Below are positions 9,545 through 56,363 of a DNA stretch of 64,000 bases, piece after piece. Origin of the DNA: a virus. The notes beneath the pieces are model-generated. The model was given only the letters and a program-made list of their open reading frames with translations. It made no database searches and was not told the DNA's origin. The number at the start of each line of letters is the position of its first letter. Positions within the stretch are counted from its first letter, which is position 1. Made by a program: the position numbers and the translations under genes. The DNA is taken from the IMG/VR virus record IMGVR_UViG_3300006051_000001, positions 124,001-188,000 of that record; one strand, given 5' to 3'.

Positions 9545-10387
9545 ATGTTGGCCGTGATAATCAAAGGTAATCCTAAGTTCATCAATACAGCATTAGCGAG
9601 AACGTACTACTCCGACATCGAGAAGTATCTCAAAGCCCTCGGCTATAAGGTTGAATTCGATGAGGGTAATGACTACACCAGACCCCGACAAGATGCTGAT
9701 CTGTACGTCGCACACTCCCGCGGTGTCGGACGTTACGAGTTCATGGAAGAGAGGAATAAATCGAAGTTCGTGAAGCTTGGTAGTCTGGACGGTGCAATCG
9801 ATCCAGTCGATCGTAAGTGGCAGGAAGAAGTCTGGCATCCGGGCATCAAGACGCCACCGCCGCATGAACACTTCATCTTCACCGACATCCAGAAAGATGC
9901 GATCCTTCAAGTAGGCGGCGTTTCGATTGATTCGCTCAAGAAGGTAAATGGTCTATCCAGTACTCTTAGTCCAGATCTTCGAAGACTCGTAGAGCTGGCG
10001 ATGAAGGACCCTTACCTCGGGACGCCTGCATTGAAGAGCAACATGGAGAACATCACACCTCTCCTCTATAAAGGTCGCACCGTTGGTTTCGCCGTTCCGT
10101 TCCGTGAGAGCGACGGTTACTGGCGTACTGGTTCTATCTATATAGAACCCGCATTCCGGCGTAAAGGGATTGCTCACGAATGGATTGAATCCTTCATGGA
10201 AGGTAAAGCTGGACGTGCGTGGATCGATCCACGTAACGCATCGAGCATCGCAGCTTACACTGCGGCAGGCTTTACCAAGTCAGGGCGGCATGTCAAATCC
10301 CCGATCTCAGGTAATTGGTTTGATGAGTATCTAACCGAAGAAGCCGGCATGGAAAGTGCACCACCTAAGACCTTATTGACCTGGTGA
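9545..10387 (+). CDS. alpha/beta-hydrolase-like domain fused to GNAT acetyltransferase (280 aa)
   Basis: The N-terminal ~125 residues contain DLYVAHSRGVGR (52-63), like the serine nucleophile elbow of small alpha/beta hydrolases, and end with HFIFTDIQKDAI (109-120). From about residue 165 there is a GNAT N-acetyltransferase fold: TVGFAVPF, GSIYIEPAFRRKGIA with the acetyl-CoA loop RRKGIA at 205-210, and NASSIAAYTAAGF (231-243). The GNAT assignment is firm; the hydrolase part is weaker. It could modify a host or phage protein during infection; the substrate is unknown. ATG follows GGGGAAC. A promoter-like sequence lies inside its last codons. Confidence 0.75.
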   Translation: MLAVIIKGNPKFINTALARTYYSDIEKYLKALGYKVEFDEGNDYTRPRQDADLYVAHSRGVGRYEFMEERNKSKFVKLGSLDGAIDPVDRKWQEEVWHPGIKTPPPHEHFIFTDIQKDAILQVGGVSIDSLKKVNGLSSTLSPDLRRLVELAMKDPYLGTPALKSNMENITPLLYKGRTVGFAVPFRESDGYWRTGSIYIEPAFRRKGIAHEWIESFMEGKAGRAWIDPRNASSIAAYTAAGFTKSGRHVKSPISGNWFDEYLTEEAGMESAPPKTLLTW

Positions 10388-10404
10388 TCACTATTATATA
10401 TGTA
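10376..10404 (+). promoter_or_regulatory. sigma70-like promoter for the 10.4-kb RNA
   Basis: TTGACC (10376-10381), 17-nt spacer, TATGTA (10399-10404), with an AT-rich TATTATATA just before the -10. It overlaps the end of the GNAT gene and points into a structured noncoding stretch that has its own terminator. Confidence 0.4.
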
Positions 10405-10410
10405 CTAGGC

Positions 10411-10663
10411 TGCTTCGGGCTGATGAAGCCAAGTATCATGCTAGGTGGGCTCACACGCTCCTCCACCTAGCCACTGAGGTCGGGACGCTCTCCTCGACCT
10501 AGGCGTTGATGTTCGCGGGTTCGTCAACGTCTTGTTAGGTACTCAGTACTTAGCCGTTTGTTCAGGGTATTGCGAGAGCGCGCCTTGAGCAAACGGATAG
10601 CTACTGCGCCCCTGTGTGTTATCGGTATTCTCCCCACCCACTGGATTCGTCTGGTGGGTGGGG
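10411..10663 (+). ncRNA. candidate structured noncoding RNA
   Basis: The 345-nt gap between coding genes has no convincing frame but successive stem-loops: CTAGGTGG/CCACCTAG (10441-10448/10463-10470), AGGTCG/CGACCT (10477-10482/10495-10500), CGTTGATG/CGTCAACG (10504-10511/10522-10529, one wobble) and a helix of about 14 bp starting CCGTTTG (10554-10567/10583-10596, three wobbles). It begins after a promoter-like sequence and ends in a 10-bp hairpin. It is not a tRNA. Role unknown; it may regulate translation or act as a decoy. Confidence 0.5.
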
Positions 10664-10667
10664 TTTA
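10632..10667 (+). terminator. terminator of the candidate RNA
   Basis: CCCCACCCAC (10632-10641) pairs perfectly with GTGGGTGGGG (10654-10663), then TTTATGCTGCG. The TTTATGCTGC tail recurs after other terminators here. Confidence 0.65.
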
Positions 10668-10732
10668 TGCTGCGTTAATAAACCGCAGTCACACATTACC
10701 ATTTTAGATACACCAACCAAAGGAGAAGTTCC

Positions 10733-11125
10733 ATGACTCACATGCTGAACATCACGCTGGATAAGAACGATCGCGATAAACACTTCACCACTTACAAAGG
10801 TCGTAAGATCTACATCTCACCTCTTGCCGATAGTCGCGATAAGCCAGCCGCACCTGTCATCGCATTCAAAGGTCTTCTAGAAGGACATCTGACCGTCCAC
10901 ATGGTTAAGACTTTTGACGGATACACTGACGAGTATCGACACACAATCCACAGTGGCGATTATAAGGGATACGTCTTCGTACTCGACCACGGATTCAAGA
11001 TCAGCGTAGAAGAATTCAATAAGCGCTTCTATCCACATTACTACAAAGAAGATGGCGATAGAATCTGGCGCTGTCCTACACGTAGTTTAGACGAAGCGTG
11101 GGAGCATTCAGAAGAATACATTTAA
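10733..11125 (+). CDS. hypothetical protein (130 aa)
   Basis: ATG at 10733 follows a good AAGGAG. The 130-residue product is charged and strand-rich (KGRKIYISPLADSRDK, YKGYVFVLDHGFKISVEEF) with no membrane segment. Not recognised. Upstream, CAGTCACACATTACC (10686-10700) resembles the conserved leader element at 11142 and 32396, so the gene may have its own promoter. The next gene begins after a 93-nt leader. Confidence 0.75.
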   Translation: MTHMLNITLDKNDRDKHFTTYKGRKIYISPLADSRDKPAAPVIAFKGLLEGHLTVHMVKTFDGYTDEYRHTIHSGDYKGYVFVLDHGFKISVEEFNKRFYPHYYKEDGDRIWRCPTRSLDEAWEHSEEYI

Positions 11126-13639: not shown

Positions 13640-13974
13640 GTAATCCGTAATTAGTTACAGATGGCGATGTACTACTATGTAGAAACACCCTCGTTGATTA
13701 GTCAACGCCCAGTTGATACACCTAGCTCTTTTACAATTTGGGTCTCCCTGCCGATAGTCTTGAGTACGGTGCCAATACGGTCACGCTCTTGCTTCCCTCG
13801 CATAGACAACTCGCTTAGCTGGTATAAAGCCCAGCAAACCCCTAGCGGTCTGACAGAGTCTGATCGCGTTCCCTAAGAGTTTGGAATAGTACCAGTACAG
13901 TACGGGTTCAATCGCCGCGATTGCTTTAGTACTCGAACAAACGTGCCGGGCCTTTCGGAGCATCCCGTAAGAAA
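13640..13974 (+). ncRNA. noncoding stretch with stem-loops, possible RNA gene
   Basis: About 335 nt lies between a terminator and another terminator-like hairpin with no supportable gene; 60-90-codon frames here lack an SD. TTACAG (13654-13659) matches the element upstream of other units. CGTTGA/TCAACG (13693 region) and CAATCG/CGATTG (13909 region) form short hairpins. A GGTTCAATC stretch resembles a tRNA T-loop but no cloverleaf fits. A transcript from about 13670 to 14000 is plausible, not shown. Confidence 0.35.
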
Positions 13975-13977
13975 TAT

Positions 13978-14002
13978 AAAGCCCGGCCTCGCGCCGGGCT
14001 TT
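13978..14002 (+). terminator. terminator hairpin, TTTATGCTGC tail
   Basis: AAAGCCCGGC (13978-13987) pairs with GCCGGGCTTT (13993-14002), followed by ATGCTGCATG. Same family as 3641 and 16570. Confidence 0.7.
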
Positions 14003-14088
14003 ATGCTGCATGCGTAATAAAAGAAAACAGAGTCTTATATTGTACACTTGAATCTATACCGCCCCTAATACCCGCACGGAGCATCAAC

Positions 14089-41902: not shown

Positions 41903-43555
41903 ATGCATACTTGGTTATTTGACGACTTGCAGCAAAGGATGCCTGTTTTCAATCAGGACATTCTGGATGGCCTCGCCTATCGCGGCCTGGACGATGCTAA
42001 AGGCCTCGTAGATCAGACTATTGCGTGTGCTGAAAACAGTTATCCAGATGACTTTGAGTACAACGGATCTTACATCTGTAGTCCTCAAGAAGCGTACAGC
42101 GTTATGTCATCTTCGCTGACACGCTCCGATCGTTCCACCCCCTCCATCGACTTAGCGCAAAGCGATGTCTACATGGTGAAGTATCAGTTCTCCTGTAATG
42201 GCGTTCCGCTATACCCGCGGTACTTCTGTCTGCCAGCACCGCGGCGCGGTGGTTTGCTCACAATTACAGGAAAGCAATTTGCCATCGGCGATGTTCTCAC
42301 AGACCCTGGCCTTTCGATAGGCCAGGACTTTGTGTTCATCCGTATGTCACGCGCTCCGGTTACATTCAAGCGCCTGATCTACACCGTTTTGAAAGATGGA
42401 GAAGATTACTCCGAGTACATTGCTTATTCTTGGTTGCACCATCGGTCTGCCAACAATAACAAGAAGTCGGAAAGTGACACCATCACGCTAGGTAAGGTGA
42501 TGTCTACTCTGCCGCATTATCTCTTCTGCCGTTATGGCTTGAAGGAGACGTTCGCTCGGTTTGCGTATTGCGATGTTGCAATCGTTACCGAAGAGTTCTT
42601 GGCGGAGAACCCTGTTGACCCGGACAAGTACACCGTAGTCAGATCAGCCAAGTCCCGGCCGGCTGCATTGAAGCTGCGTGTGCATTACCCTGATATCGCT
42701 ACAAATCTCTGCTTGATCATTCCTAAAGCGGCTACCAATCAACTTACCATGGCTTTCGCCCTGGCCTTCTTCTATCTCGTGGATCTGTTTCCTCAGGATC
42801 TGCTGGTTGAAGACTTGCTGGGTGATGACATCTGGAAGCGCTGGATGGGTTACGTTCTCTTTGGCGACCAGATGTCTGTTGGTAAGCTGGTTGAGAACGT
42901 GGTGAGTCACCTCATCAGTCTGGATGATTACGTAGACATCGAGGTACGCAAGACTCTGCTGGATGAAGAGAACTTGGATGTTGAAAACCTCTACGAGTTC
43001 TTCGCTTACATCCTCGTTCAGATCGATCACCTGATCGACTCGAAAGCGGAATCCATTGGCTCCATGTATGGAAAACGCTTGGTGACTGCGCAGTATGTAC
43101 TGCGTGACATCTACGAGCAGATCTTCCGGTGTCTCTTTGAGATCACAAACAACCGGAAGCGTAAGCACACAGCGGATGACTACAACAAGATCTTGGGTAA
43201 GTTCTTTATGCCCACGATCATCTTCAACCTTCGCAAGACCAGCAGCAAACCGTTTATGTCCAGCGTGTCTACACCTGGCGACAACATGTTCTTCCGAATC
43301 ACATCTCGCTTGGTAATGCAGGCGCAAACAAGCGCTGGGCGTAAATCCCAGAACTTGAACGTGAACGATCCACAATCGTGGCTCGACGGTTCGATTGCTG
43401 AAGGGGGTAACCACCTTATCCTTCCGAAGCACTCCCCACTGGGTCGTAATACGATCAACCCGACAGTGGAACTGGACGAGAAGAACACGATTGTGCGGAA
43501 AGAACACATGAAGCCAATCGTTGCGCATATCGACGCCGCTATCGGCCGTAACTAA
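41903..43555 (+). CDS. probable RNA polymerase beta-subunit fragment (phiKZ-type, 550 aa)
   Basis: Residues 100-160 (VPLYPRYFCLPAPRRGG, LLTITGKQFAIGDVLTDP, FVFIRMSRAPVTFKRLIYT) resemble the beta-subunit protrusion, where a strand-turn reading ...ITG.... precedes RSPG in cellular enzymes. The C-terminal part (SVSTPGDNMFFR, SWLDGSIAEGGNHLIL, HSPLGRNTINPTVEL) resembles what I recall of phiKZ gp123, the N-terminal beta fragment of the non-virion polymerase, whose gene is also close to the capsid gene in phiKZ. Polymerase subunits are split in such phages, so a single fragment is expected. Not verifiable by eye. AGGGGATGG precedes the ATG. Confidence 0.55.
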   Translation: MHTWLFDDLQQRMPVFNQDILDGLAYRGLDDAKGLVDQTIACAENSYPDDFEYNGSYICSPQEAYSVMSSSLTRSDRSTPSIDLAQSDVYMVKYQFSCNGVPLYPRYFCLPAPRRGGLLTITGKQFAIGDVLTDPGLSIGQDFVFIRMSRAPVTFKRLIYTVLKDGEDYSEYIAYSWLHHRSANNNKKSESDTITLGKVMSTLPHYLFCRYGLKETFARFAYCDVAIVTEEFLAENPVDPDKYTVVRSAKSRPAALKLRVHYPDIATNLCLIIPKAATNQLTMAFALAFFYLVDLFPQDLLVEDLLGDDIWKRWMGYVLFGDQMSVGKLVENVVSHLISLDDYVDIEVRKTLLDEENLDVENLYEFFAYILVQIDHLIDSKAESIGSMYGKRLVTAQYVLRDIYEQIFRCLFEITNNRKRKHTADDYNKILGKFFMPTIIFNLRKTSSKPFMSSVSTPGDNMFFRITSRLVMQAQTSAGRKSQNLNVNDPQSWLDGSIAEGGNHLILPKHSPLGRNTINPTVELDEKNTIVRKEHMKPIVAHIDAAIGRN

Positions 43556-56292: not shown

Positions 56293-56363
56293 TTCGATTT
56301 ATGCTGCGTGTTAATTATTCACTATCACACTTGCTTTTATGTTAAAGAGCTTTCTTCCTTATT

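Follow-up and report, generated by a model that had tools for sequence, protein, structure and literature searches.

The window, the 64,000-nt stretch of DNA analysed here, comes from a 188-kb virus contig of a phiKZ-like jumbo phage (IMG/VR record IMGVR_UViG_3300006051_000001, positions 124,001 to 188,000). Its genes include those for a major head protein of phiKZ type, a DnaB-like helicase, virion proteins and an SNF2/DEAD helicase, the last of which is common to many jumbo phages. A homologue of PHIKZ123 lies at 41903-43552 (E = 5e-58); PHIKZ123 is one subunit of the phiKZ non-virion RNA polymerase (nvRNAP) and the one that was searched for. A search of the record for bacterial RNA polymerase families was negative, as expected for diverged phage enzymes. 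No tRNA or tmRNA was found in the window. Between a stop codon at 10387 and an ATG at 10733 is a gene-free gap of 345 nt (10388-10732), with a GNAT-domain gene on one side and a small unknown gene on the other. Nine of 12 loci have the GNAT gene directly upstream, in the same orientation. In the window the GNAT product (9545-10387) has a fused N-terminal domain, phrog_30942, known from phiKZ-like phages; the homologue in the closest relative, L002 (IMGVR_UViG_3300041411_000129), has the GNAT part only, without this domain. The predicted features of the gap are as follows.

10399..10402, + strand: TATG start motif within TATTATATATG, of the phiKZ nvRNAP late-promoter type, with a putative function and +1 expected at G10402
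10402..10670, + strand: structured non-coding RNA, a predicted transcript of about 270 nt with putative ends, supported by fold z-score, covariation in 11 copies and a held-out search
10404..10439, + strand: optional 5' hairpin region, weaker, ahead of HP1
10440..10471, + strand: HP1, a 9-bp stem with CUCC in the loop
10477..10500, + strand: HP2, a 6-bp stem with two-sided changes at 5 of 6 pairs
10486..10492, + strand: kissing strand CGCUCUC in the HP2 loop (partner 10574-10580)
10501..10532, + strand: HP3, an 11-bp stem with a GCGGGU-like loop and two-sided changes at 8 of 11 pairs
10534..10554, + strand: HP4, a small hairpin with a conserved AGCC junction with HP5 at its end
10555..10595, + strand: HP5, a 14-bp stem with two-sided changes at 12 of 14 pairs
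10574..10580, + strand: kissing strand GAGAGCG in the HP5 loop (partner 10486-10492)
10632..10663, + strand: intrinsic-terminator-type hairpin of 14 pairs including G-U
10664..10673, + strand: TTTATGCTGC tail after the terminator stem

The + strand of this region folds at -122.8 kcal/mol, compared with -93.7 +/- 5.0 kcal/mol for 200 dinucleotide-preserving shuffles (z = -5.9), none of which folded as well, and this was the folding check that the preliminary description had proposed. The opposite strand folds less strongly (z = -4.1). The row of hairpins that had been described is present, including the helix of about 14 bp (the HP5 stem), and the comparison of copies shows the hairpins to be beyond chance. 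The 10-bp terminator is also present at 10632-10663, where 10 counts perfect pairs only. HP2, HP3, HP4 and HP5 follow each other with almost no linker. That earlier reading was right in its letters and its hairpins and overlooked the strongest feature, a pairing between the loops of HP2 and HP5.

Phages of the phiKZ type initiate late transcription with their own RNA polymerase at T(-3)ATG(+1) (PMC4666361). Both features expected of an nvRNAP late RNA were found here, namely TATG at the predicted 5' end of the RNA and an encoded homologue of an nvRNAP subunit. The TATG is located 51-87 nt ahead of the structured core in 11/11 copies. A sigma70-like promoter had been proposed instead, and its letters are indeed in place (TTGACC at 10376-10381, a 17-nt spacer and TATGTA at 10399-10404), but the assignment is not supported: TTGACC lies inside the GNAT coding region and reads CTGGCT in L002, and a promoter scan did not return the TTGACC/TATGTA pair. 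The TATATATG segment is identical in L002, although the -35 hexamer has changed there. Thus, neither the comparison with L002 nor the promoter scan gave the conserved -35 and -10 hexamers of a sigma-70-transcribed sRNA. At the other end of the RNA, a tail similar to that of the window follows the terminator in the other copies and also several other terminators in the window. After many terminator hairpins of the window stands TTTATGC(T/C)G, a sequence overlapping the TATG start motif, and these sites are perhaps combined terminator-promoter units. In L020 (7189-6915, - strand), L017 and L040, the RNA runs about 250 nt past HP5, with further hairpins before the terminator.

The region is closely preserved in L002. 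Positions 10386-10558 are identical at 173/173 nt, and the exact run of 179 nt at 10382-10560, which takes in the promoter and the first two thirds of the RNA, is the longest within 14 kb. Promoter and RNA as a whole are 94% identical, and the neighbouring genes are 74-92% identical overall (GNAT gene 82%, helicase gene 92%, nearby gene 77%). HP5 and the terminator hold the differences, many of them compensatory: UUC/GAG in the window becomes AGA/UCU in L002, and a C-G pair of the terminator becomes U-A.

More distant copies were sought in jumbo-phage contigs collected by helicase alignment; the RNA region had no homologue in DNA searches against known phages, and protein searches with the two flanking genes gave no viral contigs. 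The contigs with 58-68% helicase identity and enough sequence contained a TATG-led structured RNA, 1-5 kb upstream of the helicase and on the opposite strand. A descriptor search of 120 loci, combining HP2, HP3, HP5 and the loop complementarity, returned all of these places but that in L019, along with those in L017, L020 and L040 and a few scattered other matches. We aligned HP2-HP5 from 11 sequences, forming eight sequence groups, from metagenomic and possibly incomplete contigs. In this hand-made alignment, in which N stands for a gap and which is biased towards the structure, two-sided compensatory changes occur at 32 of 42 pairs, and 94.7% of cells are paired, compared with 36-43% when slid and 69.8% when shuffled. 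The covariation score was 0.77 versus 0.26 in shuffles. The same structure, which the preliminary description had suggested looking for in related phages, is thus present in 11 copies with its fold kept while the sequence is rewritten. HP1 keeps its position in the other copies with a different stem sequence, and the 5' leader is longer in the window, L002, L010, L012, L014 and L016 and shorter in L017-L020 and L040.

A covariance model built from four sequences only (the window, L002, L010 and L012) and searched over 1.05 Mb recovered six of the seven unseen copies as its six best matches, all syntenic (L016, L020, L019, L040, L017 and L014; E = 1.5e-13 to 1.2e-5, next match E = 0.1); the copy in L018 was missed. 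With all 11 sequences, the model found one clear copy in each of 11 other records of the clade and, across 50 records, no convincing copy elsewhere. Its weak matches in L047, L044, Noxifer and others had E values of 0.001-0.05; on inspection, those in L047 and L044 were rejected.

The HP2 and HP5 loops form a 7-bp loop-loop helix (10486-10492 with 10574-10580) in which 98.7% of cells are paired and six of the seven pairs covary. The window has CGCUCUC/GAGAGCG, where L019 has CGUUCCC/GGGAACG, L010 UAUCCUC/GAGGAUA, L018 CAUUCCC/GGGAGUG and L016 UGUCCUC/GGGGACA. We compared pairing within and between genomes for 21 loop/linker pairs, and HP2-HP5 was the only convincing one (own -11.6 versus cross -6.7 kcal/mol; p about 5e-5 versus swapped loops). 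The next best, HP1-HP2, had p = 0.05, which is not significant after 21 tests. Whole-loop swaps never matched the observed pairing with 11 sequences, and did so in 3 of 20000 with 8 representatives. Pairing of the HP3 loop with a downstream CCCC stretch was no better than swapped and was rejected. Circularity from the hand alignment is lessened, though not removed, by the held-out model together with the test of all loop pairs. Since the helices and the loop-loop contact persist through changes of sequence, selection acts on shape. The covariation would fit a kissing helix within one molecule or between two molecules equally well.

A conserved reading frame across relatives, which the preliminary description had named as evidence against an RNA, was not found among the copies. 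Core lengths range from 114 to 122 nt and do not differ by multiples of three, so a shared reading frame, and with it a small protein gene, is ruled out. The genes downstream differ between lineages and belong to different families; no conserved association with one downstream gene family was found, a result that speaks against a riboswitch or leader. The GNAT gene is absent from L017, L020 and L040, where the upstream neighbour is divergent, so the RNA needs a promoter of its own. Readthrough from GNAT mRNA is possible at the loci where the GNAT gene directly precedes the RNA in the same orientation. From these comparisons of sequence we conclude that 10402-10670 is a real structured non-coding RNA, beyond merely foldable DNA. 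That it is an independent small RNA, as first proposed, is strongly supported by the covarying fold, the conserved start motif, the terminator, the lack of a conserved reading frame, the non-conserved genes downstream and the copies whose upstream gene is divergent.

Our preferred reading, to which we give a probability of about 0.68, is that of an independently transcribed structural RNA with a probable nvRNAP start at TATG and a kissing-helix fold, acting in trans. The phage nvRNAP would probably initiate at TATG (G10402), and transcription would stop at the terminator hairpin near 10663-10673. The RNA would fold into a closely packed row of hairpins, locked by the 7-bp HP2-HP5 kissing helix. 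Its action in trans would most likely depend on this three-dimensional shape, with the RNA serving as a scaffold for, or binding partner of, a protein, a ribosome or an RNA complex; antisense pairing and control of a neighbouring gene are less likely.

The covarying loops could also pair between molecules, giving a dimer, ring or cage in the manner of phi29 pRNA, ROOL and GOLLD. With HP3 and HP4 placed between HP2 and HP5 almost without linker, a straight intramolecular kiss would be awkward by rough geometry, and intermolecular kissing loops are used by other phage RNAs (PMC12286853). However, an intramolecular kiss fits the same data and no self-assembling family was matched in Rfam, so that we consider self-assembly possible, though on balance unlikely. 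Somewhat more speculative still is a new class of self-assembling phage RNA, in which HP2-HP5 contacts would join copies into a ring or cage in phiKZ-like jumbo phages for packaging, ribosome capture or a compartment, and for which another RNA in the same slot of other jumbo phages, described below as type B, would be a counterpart.

The remaining models are less supported. C-rich loops (CUCC in HP1, CUCUCCU in HP2) could bind the Shine-Dalgarno sequences of phage or host mRNAs as an antisense regulator, and CUCC is present in the HP1 loop of seven of eight sequence groups, with pyrimidine-rich HP2 loops; yet HP5 occupies the HP2 loop in every lineage and no conserved seed exceeds about 4-5 nt, making this improbable. 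The intergenic position on one strand, and the GNAT gene so often upstream, would suit a 3' UTR of the GNAT gene, or an attenuator or riboswitch acting on the gene downstream, but a cis-acting element is harder still to credit with unrelated downstream genes, three phages with a divergent upstream gene in place of GNAT and a strong terminator before the next gene. A protein sponge, for example for CsrA/RsmA, would draw on the GGA at the HP2 loop of six of eight sequence groups; this single conserved site is missing in L010 and L014, the kiss accounts for the HP5 purines, and we rejected this very improbable model because GGA is not universal. Terminator hairpins are numerous in the phage, but ordinary terminators plus chance inverted repeats, with no functional RNA, are contradicted by the covariation, the kissing helix, the synteny and the held-out recovery, and we regard this as barely credible.

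The slot upstream of the SNF2/DEAD helicase is filled differently in DT01-like phages, by type B, a structured RNA that measures about 430 nt and likewise starts at TATG.

L004 2725-3212, - strand, equal to MW735835.1 262309-262796, + strand: type B in Pseudomonas phage DT01, unannotated

Covariation was found at 33 of its 67 predicted pairs. Besides DT01, no fewer than nine related IMG/VR contigs have type B, and in nearly all of these phages a boxA-like motif follows TATG by 11 nt; the type B pattern occurs once per record in seven records searched and in none of ten records of the clade of the window RNA (type A). The two are alike in slot, TATG and covarying structure, and type B has the TATAGTATGTA start seen in L017 and L040. 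They differ in sequence, in fold and in length (type A about 270 nt), and type A lacks the boxA-like motif. As DT01 is a cultured phage, type B offers an immediate laboratory handle.

A second candidate non-coding RNA in the window (type C, 13679-14006, + strand) has a TACTATG start, a terminator at 13975-14005 and a boxA-like GCTCTTTTACA at 13725-13735. Its CGTTGA/TCAACG hairpin shows a compensatory change in L002, where type C is 89% identical versus about 74% for the upstream gene, and its MFE z-score is only -1.2. L010 and L012 contain homologous stretches, and L016 and L018 likewise have a TATG followed by a boxA. In both type B and type C, TATG is thus followed shortly by a near match to GYTCTTTAANA, the rrn boxA consensus (PMC5725501). 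A further boxA-like GCTCTTTAACA lies in a gene-free gap at 56340-56350 (- strand).

Work on structured RNAs in jumbo phages has hardly begun. The window RNA can be tested directly for expression, structure and effect on infection, since its fold is measurable, its tertiary contact covaries, its start motif is of a known type and its place in the genome is fixed. The Rfam 15 families, including pRNA, ROOL, GOLLD, OLE and 6S, gave no match above the gathering score in the window, L002 or L004, and relaxed searches gave chance-level matches only. The phi29 pRNA is a small phage RNA of variable sequence and conserved fold with two complementary loops. The window RNA is likewise small, keeps its fold despite sequence change and has two complementary loops, but it differs in its row of hairpins, its phiKZ-like host phage, the lack of an indicated packaging role and the lack of an Rfam match. 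ROOL and GOLLD, also structured RNAs from phages or prophages, have conserved kissing loops and no known function (PMC12286853); they measure about 660 to >800 nt and are often near tRNA genes, unlike the RNA of about 270 nt in the tRNA-free window. On this subject, a 2026 review goes no further than stating that phiKZ expresses non-coding RNAs (PMC13282480). Those found in phiKZ by Grad-seq, the PHIKZ298 3' UTR and the p40 5' UTR, are about 100 and 180 nt long with two stem-loops (PMC8545117). They resemble the window RNA in being described as structured and in coming from a phiKZ-type jumbo phage; however, they derive from mRNA UTRs, whereas the window RNA starts with a TATG of its own and forms at least six hairpins.
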